Origin: a virus
Direction: 5' to 3' (one strand)
Length of the DNA: 23,533 nt
IMG/VR virus record: IMGVR_UViG_3300020401_000095
Location: 1 to 23,533 of that record
Shown here one piece after another: positions 13,715-20,420 of this stretch; the first letter of the stretch is position 1, and each line of letters starts with the position of its first letter. Below the pieces are notes generated by a model. The model made no database searches. It had not been told where the DNA came from and saw only the letters and a list, made by a program, of their open reading frames with translations. Made by a program: the position numbers and the translations under genes.

Positions 13715-14623
13715 ATGTCAAAATTAAACGTTAATGAAATCGAAGCTACTAGCACTAATACCAATGTAAAAGTTGTTCCTAAAGGTGCTGATGCTACGTG
13801 TGAAATTAAAGGAACTGATGATGCAACTTTACAATTAAATTGTTCAGCACAAAGTCACGGAGTCAAATTAAAAGCACCAAACTCAACAGCAAGTCAAAAC
13901 TATACAATGATCTTGCCTGATAACCAGATAGCAGCAAATAAACTATTGAGAGTTAAAAGCATTACTGGTACTGGTGCGACTGCTGTTGGACAATTAGAGT
14001 TTGCAGATGAACCTCCACAAGATATAAGTTCTTTAAATGCTAGTAATTTAACATCTGGAACTATACCATCAGCTAGAATACCAAGTATCCCTTCATCCGC
14101 CGGAACTGCATTAGAACTTGTTAGTATATTCACTGTCGGTTCTACTGCTATTTCCAGCGCGATAATTACTATTAGTGATCAAGATTCAGTATATAAGTTA
14201 GTCGGAAGAAATATACAATTATCGTCAGCTTCTAATCTTGAAATGTTTTTTCAAAATTCCGCTGGTGGTCAATATAGTGGTATAATCTATACAAGATCAT
14301 ATCACAACAGTGCTGGCACGTCAGGTGCTGTTTATTTGAACAACAGCAGCAGCAGCGGCGTATCTACTATACCTTTAAGTGTTTATAGCGAATCATCATA
14401 TCAATTTATAGCTGATTTTTGTCCTAAAGCAGGTCGAAATTTTATGATGATAGAAGGATTTAGTGGGGGAACCACAGGCACACAAAATACAAGGCATCAG
14501 CAACGGGCAACTATGTTTTACAGCTGGCAAGGAATAAATCGAATTAAAGTTGCACCTGCTACATCAAGCGTAACCATTCAACCAAACTCAGAGTTCGTAC
14601 TTTACAAATATAGGGAAAGTTAA
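13715..14623 (+). CDS. Fibre-like virion protein, paralogue 1 of 3
   Basis: 302 residues. It opens with MSKLNVNEIEATS, followed by a beta-rich head (THR/LYS-rich strands, LQLNCSAQSHGVKLKAP, SQNYTMILPDNQI, KLLRVKSITGTGATAVGQLEF). From memory, this head recurs in marine cyanophage structural proteins. At 14021-14083 it carries the 21-residue motif shared with the tail fibre (LNASNLTSGTIPSARIP). The C-terminal 170 residues are Ser/Gly/Asn-rich and diverge from the two neighbours, except for the last strand (SEFVLYKYRES). Probable role: a tail- or capsid-attached receptor-binding or decoration protein. It starts after an AATATTATT spacer with no ribosome site. Function is inferred from composition and position. 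Confidence 0.75.
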   Translation: MSKLNVNEIEATSTNTNVKVVPKGADATCEIKGTDDATLQLNCSAQSHGVKLKAPNSTASQNYTMILPDNQIAANKLLRVKSITGTGATAVGQLEFADEPPQDISSLNASNLTSGTIPSARIPSIPSSAGTALELVSIFTVGSTAISSAIITISDQDSVYKLVGRNIQLSSASNLEMFFQNSAGGQYSGIIYTRSYHNSAGTSGAVYLNNSSSSGVSTIPLSVYSESSYQFIADFCPKAGRNFMMIEGFSGGTTGTQNTRHQQRATMFYSWQGINRIKVAPATSSVTIQPNSEFVLYKYRES

Positions 14624-14625
14624 TT

Positions 14626-15531
14626 ATGTCAAAAATTAAAATTAATGAAATTGAATCAGTAAATACTAACGATGATTTAACAATAACACCGAATGGTACA
14701 GGTGTATTTGAAGTAGCTGGTGAGGATGAACAGTCATCTATACAATTTAATGATTCACTACAAGTAAATAAAGTAAAGGTAAAAGCACCACATTATAGTG
14801 CAAGCCAAGACTATACAATGGTTTTACCAGCAACTAATATAACTGATAATACTTATTTAAAAGTAGATTCTACAACAGGTAGTGGCTCTACAGCTACAGG
14901 ACAATTAGGATTTCATACTATTACAGAAGCAGATACGACTAATTTAGATGGTGCCAGCTTTACAAGTGGTACAGTACCGGGAGCTAGATATAATCTTCTT
15001 GCGACACAAGGTGCGGGGTTACAACATGTTCAAACACAAACAGTTACACAGGCAAATACAGTTACTGCTATTGACTTTACTGGTTTAGAAAATGGTACGC
15101 TGTATAAATTTTTTATAAAAAACCTTACACAAGAGCCGAGTTCTCAGTACTCATTATTTAAAATATTAGATTCAAGTGGTAACCCCATAAATTCTAAGCT
15201 GAATTATGAAAGCATTTATTATGACGGTAACTATCTTCAAGAGAATACAAATGATAGTTCTATTATTTTTGACACCTATGACGATGGAGATCAATGTTTT
15301 GTAGGAGAAATTTATACAGCAAATCCTAATTCAGCTGGTCAAACTGCTAATTTTGGAATATTTAGAGGTGTAGACGCATCTCAAAGGTGGTCTAAAATGA
15401 GACTATATTTTTCTACCAGTTCAACTTATTATACCCAAATATATGGAGTTAGGTGGCAACCTTATAATAATTCAAGTAATACTTATAAAGTGGGTACAGA
15501 AATAGCAATGTATAAATATAACGAAACCTAA
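14626..15531 (+). CDS. Fibre-like virion protein, paralogue 2 of 3
   Basis: 301 residues, starting three bases after the stop of paralogue 1. The head repeats the pattern: MSKIKINEIESVNT, VKVKAPHYSASQDYTMVLPATNI, YLKVDSTTGSGSTATGQLGF. The linker motif is the most diverged copy (TTNLDGASFTSGTVPGARYN, 14932-14994). The C-terminal domain is rich in Tyr, Asn and Ser (LNYESIYYDGNYLQENTNDSS, read as two adjoining pieces LNYESIYYDG and NYLQENTNDSS) and has aromatic-rich strands near the end (YYTQIYGVRWQPYNN), before the shared terminal strand GTEIAMYKYNET. Abundant aromatic and polar residues would suit a sugar-binding tip, but that is inference. It is less similar to paralogues 1 and 3 than they are to each other at the head/body junction. 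Confidence 0.73.
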   Translation: MSKIKINEIESVNTNDDLTITPNGTGVFEVAGEDEQSSIQFNDSLQVNKVKVKAPHYSASQDYTMVLPATNITDNTYLKVDSTTGSGSTATGQLGFHTITEADTTNLDGASFTSGTVPGARYNLLATQGAGLQHVQTQTVTQANTVTAIDFTGLENGTLYKFFIKNLTQEPSSQYSLFKILDSSGNPINSKLNYESIYYDGNYLQENTNDSSIIFDTYDDGDQCFVGEIYTANPNSAGQTANFGIFRGVDASQRWSKMRLYFSTSSTYYTQIYGVRWQPYNNSSNTYKVGTEIAMYKYNET

Positions 15532-15545
15532 TAACTTATAATATT

Positions 15546-16448
15546 ATGTCAAAAATAAAAGTTAATGAAATTGAAAGCAGTAGTACAAATGTCAAACTAG
15601 CTGCTAAGGGATCAGGAGTTGTAAAAGTTAAAGGTGCGGGAGGAGCAGATGGTACATTACAACTTAATTCCGGTACACACAACGTAAAAATAAAATCCCC
15701 TGCTCATAGTGCTGGTCAATCTTACACTATGGTTTTACCTGATAATAATATTGAAACAGATAAATACTTAAGAGTTAAAAGTATTACTGGTAGTGGAGCT
15801 ACTGCTACAGGTCAGTTAGAGTATGCCACTATTCCTCAACCTGATATTACAAATTTAAATGCTACTCATATAACGTCAGGAACCGTACCAGCTGCAAGAT
15901 TTGGAACTACCATCGCAGCAAGTGTAGGTGCACTTCAATTAGTTTCAAAAACAACTGTTGGATCTACAGCTGTTAGCTCAATTGACATAACTGGTTTTGA
16001 ATCAGGGTATCACTATTTATTAATTGCTAAATGCCTAAAACAGGATAATAACTCAGCAAACTATGTATGGCTTGACGAGTATCAGGCTGATGGATCTACT
16101 TTGTATAGACTTGGGCAGTCAGTACGAGGTGGCTCAGGTTATGCACCGGTAAACGATACTATAAATGGACAACAGATTTATATAACGCCGGGTAACACAA
16201 GTCAAAGTTCACAACAACAGATGGCGTTTGTTGCTGAAATTAATAATGCAGCAACACGTGGAAGCATTTTTATAGACGCTATGCATATGGGTGTTAACGC
16301 AGGTATAAACTATAACTTTTATCAAGGATTTATGGGAACATATGGTAGTAACAACTACTTGCATACTATGAAAATTATGCCCGTTTATTCATTTTGGAAC
16401 TTTACACAAGGTTCCGAAGTACTACTTTACAGATACGGAAAAAATTAA
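15546..16448 (+). CDS. Fibre-like virion protein, paralogue 3 of 3
   Basis: 300 residues. The head is MSKIKVNEIESSST, VKIKSPAHSAGQSYTMVLPDNNI, YLRVKSITGSGATATGQLEY, very close to paralogue 1. The linker motif is at 15843-15905 (ITNLNATHITSGTVPAARFG). The body then starts like paralogue 1 (GALQLVSKTTVGSTAVSSIDI) before diverging into a distinct domain with GINYNFYQGFMG, and ends with the common strand GSEVLLYRYGKN. A TATAAT sequence lies at 15537-15542, four bases before the ATG, with no Shine-Dalgarno. The stop overlaps the ATG of the next gene (TAATG). Likely an alternative or co-assembled receptor-binding or decoration protein. Confidence 0.75.
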   Translation: MSKIKVNEIESSSTNVKLAAKGSGVVKVKGAGGADGTLQLNSGTHNVKIKSPAHSAGQSYTMVLPDNNIETDKYLRVKSITGSGATATGQLEYATIPQPDITNLNATHITSGTVPAARFGTTIAASVGALQLVSKTTVGSTAVSSIDITGFESGYHYLLIAKCLKQDNNSANYVWLDEYQADGSTLYRLGQSVRGGSGYAPVNDTINGQQIYITPGNTSQSSQQQMAFVAEINNAATRGSIFIDAMHMGVNAGINYNFYQGFMGTYGSNNYLHTMKIMPVYSFWNFTQGSEVLLYRYGKN

Positions 16449-16717
16449 TGTACAAAATGGTAGATGGTGTAACCATCAAAATGACAGACGAAGAGATTGC
16501 AGCAGCTAGAGCTGCCGATCCAACAGATGCTGAAATTCTTGCTAGAAAATGGCAACAGATAAGAGCACAAAGAAATCAAAAACTTCTTGAAACAGACTGG
16601 AGAGCTGGTAGCGATCTTACATTATCTGATGAATGGAAGACATATCGTCAAGCACTAAGAGATGTACCTACTCAGTCAGACCCAGATAACATCACTTGGC
16701 CGACAGAACCTAGCTGA
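16448..16717 (+). CDS. Phage tail/fibre assembly chaperone-like protein
   Basis: 89 residues from the ATG that overlaps the preceding stop. An upstream in-frame ATG at 16394 exists, but it lies inside the coding sequence of paralogue 3, so the 16448 start is preferred. The C-terminal half has the signature of the phage tail assembly chaperone family: RAQRNQKLLETDW, then DEWKTYRQALRDVP, then PDNITWPTEP. The N-terminal half is short and acidic, with VDGVTIKMTDEEIAA. Members of this family usually lie just downstream of the fibre genes they assist. Here it follows four fibre-type genes, so one or more of them is the probable client. The stop overlaps the next start (TGATG). Family recognition is firm; the client is inferred. 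Confidence 0.85.
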   Translation: MYKMVDGVTIKMTDEEIAAARAADPTDAEILARKWQQIRAQRNQKLLETDWRAGSDLTLSDEWKTYRQALRDVPTQSDPDNITWPTEPS

Positions 16718-17175
16718 TGCCAAATTGGAAACAAGAACTTAATCAAATTCCAGTTATAGAAATTCCACCAATTGAAACGATAGAGACAATATCTATACCG
16801 CTTCCAACAGCAGAAGTACCTTTCTATACTCCGTTGGTCATACCTCCAAGTGATTTACGATCAACAGAACAGATAGAAATACAAACAGATACATCTATAG
16901 ATAATTATGAAATAGATGCTGAAGCAACAGAAGGTACTTCTTCTAAACCTAATAATCAACCAGGAATGAGAACAGTCAATTTGTTTTCCACAAATGTTGA
17001 AATACCTCTACCTGAGAATGAGATATTAATTACAGCAACTACTACAGCTGTAGTTTCAGTTGGAGCTGCGTTAACGGCTACGGCTGTATTCAATTGGGTT
17101 GTGAAAATTATGAAACCAGTAATTAAAACATTATGGAAGAAGATGACAAAAGGGAATGGCTCCACGACTCGATAA
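16717..17175 (+). CDS. Pro/Ile-rich protein with one C-terminal membrane segment
   Basis: 152 residues. The N-terminal 50 are Pro/Ile/Glu-rich (IPVIEIPPIETIETISIPLP) and extended in character. Residues 50-100 are acidic and low-complexity. Residues about 103-130 form one hydrophobic segment (ILITATTTAVVSVGAALTAT then AVFNWVV), followed by a Lys-rich tail (KPVIKTLWKKMTK). This suggests a large extended domain on one side of a membrane and a basic anchor on the other. I recall similar architectures in T4-like cyanophages but cannot name a family. The gene also contains the only CCAGG seen in the window (16960). It overlaps the next gene by 43 bases in another frame. Possible roles: lysis accessory, spanin-like tether or minor virion protein. 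Confidence 0.65.
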   Translation: MPNWKQELNQIPVIEIPPIETIETISIPLPTAEVPFYTPLVIPPSDLRSTEQIEIQTDTSIDNYEIDAEATEGTSSKPNNQPGMRTVNLFSTNVEIPLPENEILITATTTAVVSVGAALTATAVFNWVVKIMKPVIKTLWKKMTKGNGSTTR

Positions 17176-17378
17176 AAATATTTATTCTTTTATGGTCGAT
17201 GGTGTTATTGTCTTGTAATTACATAAAAATACACGACAAAAAAATACTTGATTTTGATAGTACATTTATTGCTTCAATCTTTTCTACGTCCGCAGCTTCG
17301 CTAGGACTTAAAGGTATTGGTGGTGGAAGACTATCAGGTAACGGAAACGGAAACACAACAACTAAACCAAAAGCATGA
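17133..17378 (+). CDS. Small membrane protein, holin-like in form
   Basis: 81 residues. A charged start (MEEDDKREWLHDS) is followed by a hydrophobic helix (IKIFILLWSMVLLSCNYI, residues about 14-31). A polar turn (KIHDKKILDFD) leads to a second, weaker hydrophobic segment (STFIASIFSTSAASLGLKG) and a Gly/Asn/Thr/Lys tail. Small size, two hydrophobic segments and charged ends fit a class II-type holin, and it lies late in a structural operon. No endolysin adjoins it and no holin family motif is recognised, so this is a suggestion. The first 43 bases are dual-coding with the preceding gene, and the end overlaps the next gene by four bases (ATGA). Confidence 0.6.
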   Translation: MEEDDKREWLHDSIKIFILLWSMVLLSCNYIKIHDKKILDFDSTFIASIFSTSAASLGLKGIGGGRLSGNGNGNTTTKPKA

Positions 17379-17731
17379 AAAAACTAATCTTGCTTTTAGC
17401 GTTGTTATCACCCAGCATTGCTAAAGCCAACACAGTAACTCCTCAGTTTACAACTGGAAATATGACTTCAACTACAGTTACAACTCAAACTGTGAAAGAA
17501 GTAACCAAAAAAGAAATATACGGAGCTGCCGTAAAAACATGGTCAGGTACTAACGTAACTGCGTCCGCAGATATCGCTGGGGCTGCTACAAAATTTTCAA
17601 TCAAAGATGACACAAAAGCATGGCAGTTGGAAACAACTACTAGAGCCGCTGGTCTTATAGAAAAATGGGACATAACCTCAGACTATACAATAAACTCCAC
17701 TACAAATTCCTTCTCTGTCTTCTCACAATAG
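17375..17731 (+). CDS. Exported protein with Sec signal peptide
   Basis: 118 residues. A textbook signal peptide is present: MKK, the hydrophobic run LILLLALLSPS, then IAKA with cleavage predicted after residue 18. The mature protein is Thr/Val/Ser-rich (TSTTVTTQTVKEVTKKE) and ends with TTNSFSVFSQ. It has no cysteines and no membrane segment. The composition suggests beta structure. I recall cyanophage proteins with a similar signal peptide, Thr-rich body and FSQ-type ending, but no characterised function. The start overlaps the preceding stop (ATGA). The last 67 bases are also coding for the next gene's N-terminus in another frame. It may act in the periplasm or at the outer membrane during infection or lysis. 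Confidence 0.7.
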   Translation: MKKLILLLALLSPSIAKANTVTPQFTTGNMTSTTVTTQTVKEVTKKEIYGAAVKTWSGTNVTASADIAGAATKFSIKDDTKAWQLETTTRAAGLIEKWDITSDYTINSTTNSFSVFSQ

Positions 17732-18201
17732 GCAATCCGGTTTTTGCTGAAGGAGATACAACAAATAATGCCACACCCGTTGCTGCCGCGACGGGAAATG
17801 TGACCAACAGTGCGGTGCAATTCCAGAACAACGGAGCACCCTCGAGACAGCAGTTCAGCACTGGGAACTCGTGCAATGGAAGTACTATGACACTTAGCCC
17901 ATTTTATATGGGTAATGATGTTCAACCTGAGACTGAAGACGGATATGTCATAAACGAAAACTGGGGAGTTCAACTTGCATTTATGGTTCCCCTTAATCGT
18001 GATTTGACTAAGCAGTGCGAACGCATCGCTGCACTTCATGAACGGAATATGAAACTTTCACAAGAAATGACAAGAGCACTTAAATGTAGTGAGCTTCATC
18101 GCAAGGGCTTTACCTTCCGACCTGATTCTGACTCATACAAATTGTGCTCTGATGTCGTACCTATTCAATTAGTAAAAAACGAAAATGTTAACACTCCTTA
18201 A
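17665..18201 (+). CDS. Second exported protein, unrecognised
   Basis: 178 residues. Basic n-region (MGHNLRLYNKLHYK), hydrophobic core (FLLCLLTIG), then NPVFA with cleavage predicted after residue 28. No other ATG is available that keeps the signal peptide, which supports this start even though it overlaps the preceding gene by 67 bases. The mature part begins with an Asn/Ala/Thr-rich segment (NNATPVAAATGNVTNSAVQF), then STGNSCNGSTMTLSPFYMG, NENWGVQLAFMVPLNRDLTK, and a helical part with Cys residues (QCERIAALHERN, LKCSELH, KLCSDV). Several cysteines in an exported protein could form disulfides. I recall comparable proteins in cyanomyoviruses, without known function. Bases about 17760-17885 are clearly richer in G and C than their surroundings. 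Confidence 0.68.
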   Translation: MGHNLRLYNKLHYKFLLCLLTIGNPVFAEGDTTNNATPVAAATGNVTNSAVQFQNNGAPSRQQFSTGNSCNGSTMTLSPFYMGNDVQPETEDGYVINENWGVQLAFMVPLNRDLTKQCERIAALHERNMKLSQEMTRALKCSELHRKGFTFRPDSDSYKLCSDVVPIQLVKNENVNTP

Positions 18202-18340
18202 ACCAATCATTTTAAGCTTTGTCAAAACTGACAAATTTAAAGTTTTTGTAATTCAATTATTAGAAAAATTAGTAGAACAAACAGATAACGATTTAGACGA
18301 TAAAGCTGTAGCCATCGTTAAAAAAGGTTTAGGTCTTTAA
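18185..18340 (+). CDS. 51-residue conserved-type small protein
   Basis: ATG at 18185, TAA at 18338-18340; it overlaps the preceding gene by 17 bases. The protein starts MLTLLKPIILSFVKTDKFKV, continues FVIQLLEKLVEQTDNDLDDK, and ends AVAIVKKGLGL. The first two thirds are a hydrophobic/amphipathic helix with spaced lysines, followed by an acidic turn and a second short helix. This pattern is one I associate with a tiny cyanophage protein usually found near tail or lysis genes; its function is unknown to me. Size, tight packing and plausible composition support a real gene. It could be a membrane-active peptide (holin or antiholin) or a virion component. Confidence 0.6.
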   Translation: MLTLLKPIILSFVKTDKFKVFVIQLLEKLVEQTDNDLDDKAVAIVKKGLGL

Positions 18341-18342
18341 AT

Positions 18343-18483
18343 ATGGCAAAACAAGGTTTGTACGCAAATATTAATAAGCGCAAAAGAGCTGGTACTAGCA
18401 GACCTAAGTCAAAAAGTACAATTACTGCCAAAGCATACGCAAATATGAAAGCTGGATTTCCTAAGAAAAAAGGCAAAAAGTAA
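18343..18483 (+). CDS. 46-residue highly basic small protein
   Basis: ATG at 18343, two bases after the preceding stop; TAA at 18481-18483. The protein starts MAKQGLYANINKRKRAGTSR, continues PKSKSTITAKAYANMKAGFP, and ends KKKGKK. About a third of the residues are Lys or Arg. The GLYANI-x-x-KRKRAG-x-S and TAKAYANMK elements are typical of tiny basic proteins in marine phages (from memory). Likely a nucleic-acid-binding or internal virion protein; the function is not established. It is the last gene before a terminator-like hairpin, so it closes the structural/exported cassette. Confidence 0.65.
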   Translation: MAKQGLYANINKRKRAGTSRPKSKSTITAKAYANMKAGFPKKKGKK

Positions 18484-18513: not shown

Positions 18514-18547
18514 GCCCCTTACAGGCGATTCTGGAGGGGCAATTTTT
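18514..18547 (+). terminator. Intrinsic terminator-like hairpin before small terminase
   Basis: GCCCCT (18514-18519) pairs with AGGGGC (18535-18540). CAG (18522-18524) and CTG (18531-18533) extend the stem, with a GCGATT loop. AATTTTT follows. It separates the structural/exported cassette from the packaging genes. The right arm also contains GGAGGGG, the only Shine-Dalgarno-like sequence upstream of the small terminase start at 18555, so folding could also affect translation of that gene. Confidence 0.75.
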
Positions 18548-19391: not shown

Positions 19392-20420
19392 ATGGAAAAA
19401 TTTATACCTAAAGATGGTAGGTACGAAATTACAGCTGACCAACAACCAGCTTTACTTAAACAATTAAGAGAAACATTAGCTAATAATAATCAATCCAAGC
19501 AAGGCGTTATACATAAAACTAAAATTGGTGATCAACTTCATATTTTAAAAAATAGAGGAAATAAGGCTAATCCTATTTGGAACTTTAAGCCTATAAGTCA
19601 ACTAGCAGCTGAAAAAACTAGAAGAGTTAACAGGAAAACTTATTTCAATGAAGATAGTAGACGCGCTGCAAAAAGTTTAAAGTTTAAAGATAAAGACTTG
19701 GCTAAAGAAGCTGATGCTTTAGGTATTCCTATTTATGAAGAACATCAACATAGTTTAGATGCTCCAGCTGAACATTTACCAGATGATGTAGGTACTGATG
19801 ATCTTGGTAACCGTAAGACTAGATTAGCTACTGATAAAACTAAACAAGCTAAAGATCAATTTGATGGTATTGCAAAAAGAAATAAACATCCTTGGAAATC
19901 ATTTTTTAACGAAACAACTGATGAGTTACAGGTTATAAATATTGAAGAATGGAAAGCTAAAGGTAATGGTAGATTTGTAGATATTTTTCGTGATGGTATA
20001 ACTCTCACCCCTGCCGAAGTAAAACAATGGGATAAAGTTACTAAGACTGGTAAATTAGGTAACTTTCCAAAAGAAAAGGCTGCTTATTTACTTAAAGAAG
20101 TTGCAAGTAAAACACCTAGTAAATTAACTAAAGGATTGAAATTTGCAACAGCTGCAAGTCTTTTAGGCGTTGGAGCGTTAGGTACTGGTGCGGCTGTAGC
20201 AGATACAATACAAAGAACGAACAAAGCAAGAAAAACTGGCAACAGATTAGATAAACTACAAGCTGGTATAGCTGGTTTGTCAGCAGCTACAGGAGCAACA
20301 GGAATTGGAGAAATAGTTTCTACTCCAGCTGATTTAACAAACTTACTAATAGACGCAGCTAGATACAAGCGTAAAGGTCCCATGTTGGGGTCTAGAAGCC
20401 GTTTCAAGCTTAGAAAATAG
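19392..20420 (+). CDS. Unrecognised 342-residue protein beside large terminase
   Basis: 342 residues with no family recognised. The first 170 residues are charged and Lys/Arg/Asp-rich. A segment at about 110-158 (GIPIYEEHQHSLDAP, then DDLGNRKTRLATDKTKQAKD) has spaced His, Asp and Asn, vaguely like a degenerate HNH nuclease. The centre has Trp-rich pieces (HPWKSFF, IEEWKAK, VKQWDKV). Residues 251-270 are hydrophobic and Gly/Ala-rich (FATAASLLGVGALGTGAAVA), and 290-309 repeat that character (QAGIAGLSAATGATGIGEIV). The C-terminus is very basic (RYKRKGPMLGSRSRFKLRK). This architecture could suit a minor virion protein that meets DNA and membrane, but that is inference. It has a terminator directly before it and a repeated AACTTATCCAC element directly after it. 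Confidence 0.7.
   Translation: MEKFIPKDGRYEITADQQPALLKQLRETLANNNQSKQGVIHKTKIGDQLHILKNRGNKANPIWNFKPISQLAAEKTRRVNRKTYFNEDSRRAAKSLKFKDKDLAKEADALGIPIYEEHQHSLDAPAEHLPDDVGTDDLGNRKTRLATDKTKQAKDQFDGIAKRNKHPWKSFFNETTDELQVINIEEWKAKGNGRFVDIFRDGITLTPAEVKQWDKVTKTGKLGNFPKEKAAYLLKEVASKTPSKLTKGLKFATAASLLGVGALGTGAAVADTIQRTNKARKTGNRLDKLQAGIAGLSAATGATGIGEIVSTPADLTNLLIDAARYKRKGPMLGSRSRFKLRK

Follow-up and report, generated by a model that had tools for sequence, protein, structure and literature searches.

A conserved set of membrane and exported proteins in marine cyanophages and its possible role in late envelope disruption

Six small genes between the fibre chaperone and TerS

The window, that is, the whole stretch of 23,533 nucleotides analysed here (IMG/VR record IMGVR_UViG_3300020401_000095, positions 1 to 23,533), comes from a T7-like cyanopodovirus, a relative of P-SSP7, and covers its late region. 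The genes are arranged in the order tail and internal proteins, tail fibre, three fibre-like proteins, fibre-assembly chaperone, a cassette of small genes, TerS, HNH nuclease, TerL and transaldolase. The chaperone (PF16778, E 1.5e-15) lies directly 5' of the cassette, and the TerS that follows it belongs to PF11123. Six small open reading frames (ORFs), which a first-pass annotation had described after the chaperone at 16717-18483 on the + strand, were re-located and confirmed, and are referred to as A to F:

16717-17175, + strand: gene A, 152 aa; phrog_9426 (E 7e-38), phrog_570 (E 1e-5)
17133-17378, + strand: gene B, 81 aa; PF20048 (DUF6450; E 1.4e-13)
17375-17731, + strand: gene C, 118 aa; phrog_650 (E 3e-30)
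17665-18201, + strand: gene D, 178 aa; phrog_1755 (E 6e-43), phrog_848 (E 1e-35)
18185-18340, + strand: gene E, 51 aa, amphipathic protein; phrog_2738 (E 3e-19)
18343-18483, + strand: gene F, 46 aa, basic protein; phrog_25774 (E 6e-23)
18514-18547, + strand: hairpin with T-run, possible transcription terminator; RNA fold -16.2 kcal/mol, z -3.3

Consecutive genes overlap by 43 nt (A/B), 4 nt (B/C, ATGA), 67 nt (C/D) and 17 nt (D/E), and a gap of 2 nt separates E from F. That these are not chance ORFs follows from several observations: a PHROG relative was found for each of the six; A to E are under purifying selection, with a median dN/dS against relatives of 0.13-0.18 (two comparisons only for B, and F outside the test); the B/C overlap is exactly 4 nt in all 149 measurable loci; and the relative frame of C and D, the latter starting inside C in another frame, is kept in 237 of 238 loci. 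The hairpin, which is located between F and TerS, is absent from the output of a consensus terminator scan.

Two other parts of the window deserve mention. The three fibre-like proteins of about 300 aa, found in a row after the tail fibre (13715-16448), have similar N-terminal halves (MSK.x.NEIE...) and are recent duplications with divergent tips. Before TerL, a 342-aa protein (19392-20420) has no Pfam family, and its P-SSP7 counterpart, with 568 aa, is very different in both length and sequence.

A core of four genes in podo-, myo- and siphoviruses

The six genes do not form one system, as had been supposed; the core is A-D. F, which was found in Syn5 (E 7e-23) and P60 (E 3e-20), both lacking A-D, is outside the module. 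E is usually linked to A-D in podoviruses and also occurs in P-HS2 and S-H34, but it is present in Syn5 (gp48, E 2e-13) without them, and is only loosely associated with the core.

For A-D, the proposed co-occurrence in other phages was borne out. Using profiles built from the contigs, A, B and C were found to accompany D in every podovirus contig with enough flanking sequence (86/86). In myovirus loci with enough flank, D is always accompanied by A, C and a further gene, X (31/31), and in 27 of the 31 also by B, at a distance of no more than 3.1 kb. The siphovirus P-HS2 has all four genes, A being followed by D-C-X-B on the opposite strand and finally by E, and in P-RSP2 and P-SCSP1a an isolated B-C-D block is found, with A and E reversed. 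The set persists while gene order and orientation change, an indication that A-D are functionally linked and not mere neighbours.

Profile searches identified B, A, D and C as orthologues of Syn9 gp161, gp164, gp165 and gp166, respectively, so the first-pass annotation's proposal of similar proteins in T4-like cyanophages proved correct, and the sharing extends to a siphovirus. The corresponding P-SSM2 set (B, A, D, C and X) comprises PSSM2_223 and 239-242, and relatives of A, C and D were found in S-TIP37. Unlike the window, the Syn9 and P-SSM2 sets contain X, with A usually on the strand opposite to C-D and B at a distance of about 2 kb. These Syn9 genes, together with gp167, and their P-SSM2 counterparts are conserved hypotheticals of cyanomyoviruses, and DUF6450, DUF6322 and phrog_9426/570, 721/21865, 650 and 848/1755 are all families without an assigned function. 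The literature searched contained neither a description of the Syn9/P-SSM2 gene set as one system nor a mention of DUF6450 or DUF6322.

Searches by tblastn, using the window protein for D and the P-SSM3 proteins for C and A, returned 421 (D), 411 (C) and 407 (A) records, counts that fit the co-occurrence of these genes; all came from cyanophages or uncultured or single-cell marine viruses, and there was no match for D, C or A outside cyanophages and uncultured marine viruses. Among genome contigs, no homologue of D lay clearly on a host chromosome; the matches were in metagenome bins, in single-cell genomes and on long contigs as large as a cyanomyovirus genome. D homologues were also seen on two contigs in bacterial assemblies, one of 188 kb in Nonlabens xiamenensis (NZ_RMVE01000006.1) and one of 189 kb in a Prochlorococcus single-cell assembly (loci L278 and L275), which are probably cyanophage genomes carried in those assemblies.

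The idea of a recently mobile module found no support: in the D tree, a long branch with full support separates podovirus from myovirus forms, which are about 30% identical, and any exchange between the two groups would therefore be ancient. Syn5 gp55-gp58, of similar size and order, were considered as a parallel to A-D and rejected, as profile comparison shows no homology; the hint of virion decoration taken from gp58, which is annotated as structural, falls with it.

Predicted topology and folds of A-D and X

A contains an acidic, Pro-rich N-domain (median charge -9 and 18% Pro among homologues), one transmembrane (TM) segment toward the C-terminal side (residues about 111-129) and a basic C-tail. 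In all 206 homologues, more positive charge is found on the C-terminal than on the N-terminal flank of the TM segment, and by the positive-inside rule this bias predicts an inner-membrane protein with an N-out/C-in orientation.

B has two hydrophobic segments, at residues 13-31 and 45-63, whose Kyte-Doolittle medians are 1.86 and 1.54 over 211 homologues, and it is holin-like in size and in predicted topology. The small size, at least one (predicted) TM segment and a hydrophilic, charged C-tail that define holins are all found in B. It is a member of DUF6450 (50.9 bits against a gathering cut-off of 25), a match shared by all 14 aligned B members; no known holin family was matched, the only hits being DUF6450 and PHROGs of unknown function. 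The lipobox-like LLSC of the window protein had raised the option of a lipoprotein, which was dropped because its Cys is not conserved.

C and D both carry predicted Sec signal peptides, each with an h-region and with an almost invariant Ala preceding the putative signal peptidase I site, cleavage being predicted after A18 in C and after A28 in D. C is Thr-rich, and its AlphaFold2 model is a single long β-hairpin whose strands are each about 23 residues long (mean pLDDT 82.7, pTM 0.38). The closest PDB neighbours of this model in Foldseek are phage collar proteins and oligomeric β-barrel pores (best E 1.6e-3; pore matches at E about 7e-3 to 5e-2, with low TM-scores), and such neighbours are a hint of shape, not of homology. 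The score of C against DUF6322 (PF19847) lies below the cut-off.

X, an exported Ser/Thr/Gly-rich protein encoded upstream of C in myoviruses and in P-HS2, and absent from podoviruses of this group, is distantly related to C (hhalign probability 94.9, E 4.6e-8). Its location is as follows:

L002:5010-5609 and L003:5184-5699 (- strand) in two of the loci compared: gene X; Syn9 gp167, assigned by position

In D, four Cys residues are invariant across podoviruses, myoviruses and a siphovirus, as would be expected of a disulphide-bonded periplasmic protein. Its structural model is poor (pLDDT 56), with a β region followed by one long helix, and gave nothing usable in Foldseek. PDB sequence searches with profiles of A, C and D yielded only chance-level matches.

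Late placement and a possible role in opening the outer membrane

In cyanomyoviruses, the X-C-D unit runs opposite to the surrounding replication genes. In 55 of 66 myovirus loci, the motif [AC]TA[AT]ATA was found upstream of X, its distance to the start almost always being 21-43 nt, against an expectation of about 0.02 per locus; the stricter [AC]TAAATA occurs in 32 of 66. These counts do not represent independent events because the loci are related to one another. As controls, two blocks of P-SSM3 were scanned. In the structural block, 9 of 28 genes have the strict motif 26-38 nt upstream; of the 48 genes in a block of small hypotheticals none has it, and two carry looser variants. The reported late promoter is NATAAATA (PMC2984593).

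In podoviruses, the module sits between the tail fibre and TerS, an interval like that of T7 17.5. The lysis region of P60 (gp36-gp39, with gp37 annotated as endolysin) occupies the same interval and also consists of several small proteins; P60, however, has none of A-D, whereas in the window A-D are present and no endolysin was recognised. The T7 holin lies in the corresponding interval too. Taken with the late-promoter-like motifs before X, this placement suggests that A-D are probably expressed late. No endolysin was recognised beside A-D, nor by a Pfam scan in ten P-SSP7 and seven window proteins, and in a search for GH19 endolysins S-H34 alone scored above the curated cut-off.

Late expression fits virion proteins equally. 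C and D, together with X, might be exported to coat the cell surface or to bind released virions, for instance keeping virions from re-adsorbing to debris or decorating the particles once lysis has occurred, as their export, β-rich character, late-promoter-like motifs and apparently late genes adjoining the tail-fibre genes in podoviruses would allow. We consider this unlikely, given that A and B are membrane proteins, that C and D have Sec signals whereas virion assembly is cytoplasmic, and that the set is common to three virion architectures. This sharing by three virion types, which argues against a structural part, and the absence of tblastn matches outside cyanophages and uncultured marine viruses point to a function at the host envelope rather than in the virion.

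At the envelope, the proteins could instead block superinfection or remodel the envelope during infection, by receptor masking or membrane stabilisation, with no part in lysis. Exported and membrane proteins specific to the phages of one host group are compatible with such a role, which is nevertheless improbable: superinfection-exclusion genes, such as T4 imm and T5 llp, are usually early, and here both the placement and the promoter-like motifs are late. Among the roles listed in the first-pass annotation, one in the envelope or in lysis gives the best fit, and superinfection exclusion is less likely. From position, timing, host restriction and the sharing across three morphotypes we infer a role in lysis, and we propose, as a tentative reading with somewhat less than an even chance of being right, that A-D are a late envelope-disruption module of phages of marine picocyanobacteria, acting like a spanin with other parts.

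In a survey of 677 phages, Kongari et al. (2018) listed P-SSP7, P-SSM2, Syn9 and many other cyanophages as spanin-less, and considered as alternatives a fragile outer membrane or proteins of another topology, naming an inner-membrane protein of type I and a protein of the outer membrane (PMC6139136). Two-component spanins such as lambda Rz/Rz1 (PMC6139136) resemble A-D in that they are encoded by small, overlapping genes in different frames, expressed late as A-D probably are, and pair inner-membrane with exported partners; they differ from A-D, which have at least three components, of which A, C and D have no lipobox and A is predicted not to be type II. A lipobox-like motif, as required of an outer-membrane lipoprotein o-spanin, was found in 0 of 217 A, 1 of 241 C and 0 of 244 D homologues. 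An i-spanin is type II, with its N terminus inside and a periplasmic C-domain, the reverse of the orientation predicted for A. By prediction, A has a Pro-rich periplasmic segment like that of Rz1. With the unimolecular spanin T1 gp11, A shares a C-terminal TM segment and an N-domain predicted to be periplasmic, but it has no signal peptide and lacks the N-terminal lipobox that this class combines with a C-terminal TM segment. Given the lipobox and topology results, A-D is not a spanin family member.

All of A-D are present in three of the phages listed as spanin-less, P-SSP7, P-SSM2 and Syn9 (profile search), and at least one member was found in P-HM2, S-SSM5, Syn19, Syn33, P-SSM7 and S-SM1 (tblastn). 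The set is absent by profile search from six others, Syn5, P60, PSS2, S-PM2, S-CBS4 and Pf-WMP4, and it is therefore not a general answer to that list; at best, it is an answer for part of it.

Under the lysis reading, the parts could cooperate as follows. C (with X in myo- and siphoviruses) and D would leave the cytoplasm via Sec, D probably being held by disulphides between its conserved Cys, and C, or C with X, might form an oligomeric β structure at the outer membrane, as its hairpin model hints. A would reside in the inner membrane with its acidic, Pro-rich part in the periplasm, bridging to C and D, and B, by its topology and linkage, may be the holin or trigger. At the end of infection, as the inner membrane and the wall give way, the bridge formed by A, C and D would open the outer membrane in the manner of a spanin. 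The full proposal is more doubtful: a new kind of lipoprotein-independent outer-membrane disruption machine that would combine an N-out, Pro-rich inner-membrane rod with Sec-exported, disulphide-bonded, β-pore-forming partners, be common to podo-, myo- and siphoviruses of marine picocyanobacteria and explain part of the spanin-less phages.

An ordinary spanin could also be at work in P-SSP7-like phages. A 75-aa lipoprotein ORF, PSSP7_020A, lies outside the window in the +1 frame inside nrdJ (P-SSP7 AY939843.2, 14426-14653; locus L255) and is unrelated to A-D. Among 83 nrdJ loci (L281-L363), its ATG is kept in all, the frame is stop-free in 81 and the lipobox is kept in 73; amino-acid-matched rates from the rest of nrdJ predict 473 +1-frame stops, and only 2 were observed. 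Judged by this conservation, the ORF has the appearance of a real embedded gene, perhaps encoding an o-spanin or a superinfection-exclusion lipoprotein, and an ordinary o-spanin could thus exist in the P-SSP7 subgroup. The conserved ATG and lipobox and the depletion of stops would fit a spanin built on this lipoprotein that disrupts the outer membrane, with A-D doing something else. That explanation is quite improbable, as tblastn finds 020A only in the P-SSP7/P-SSP2/P-SSP3/P-GSP1/C849 group, a far narrower range than that of A-D, the gene lies among replication rather than late genes, and no inner-membrane partner of type II was found linked to it.

For many cyanophages, no gene is recognised for opening the outer membrane of Prochlorococcus and Synechococcus. 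A-D supplies co-inherited, exported and apparently late parts of the type proposed for spanin-less phages, and does so in hundreds of cyanophages with sequenced genomes. S-TIP37, with its relatives of A, C and D, and Syn9, with all four genes, have both already been genetically modified through recombination in Synechococcus WH8109 (PMC8776855), which brings a test of A-D within reach.
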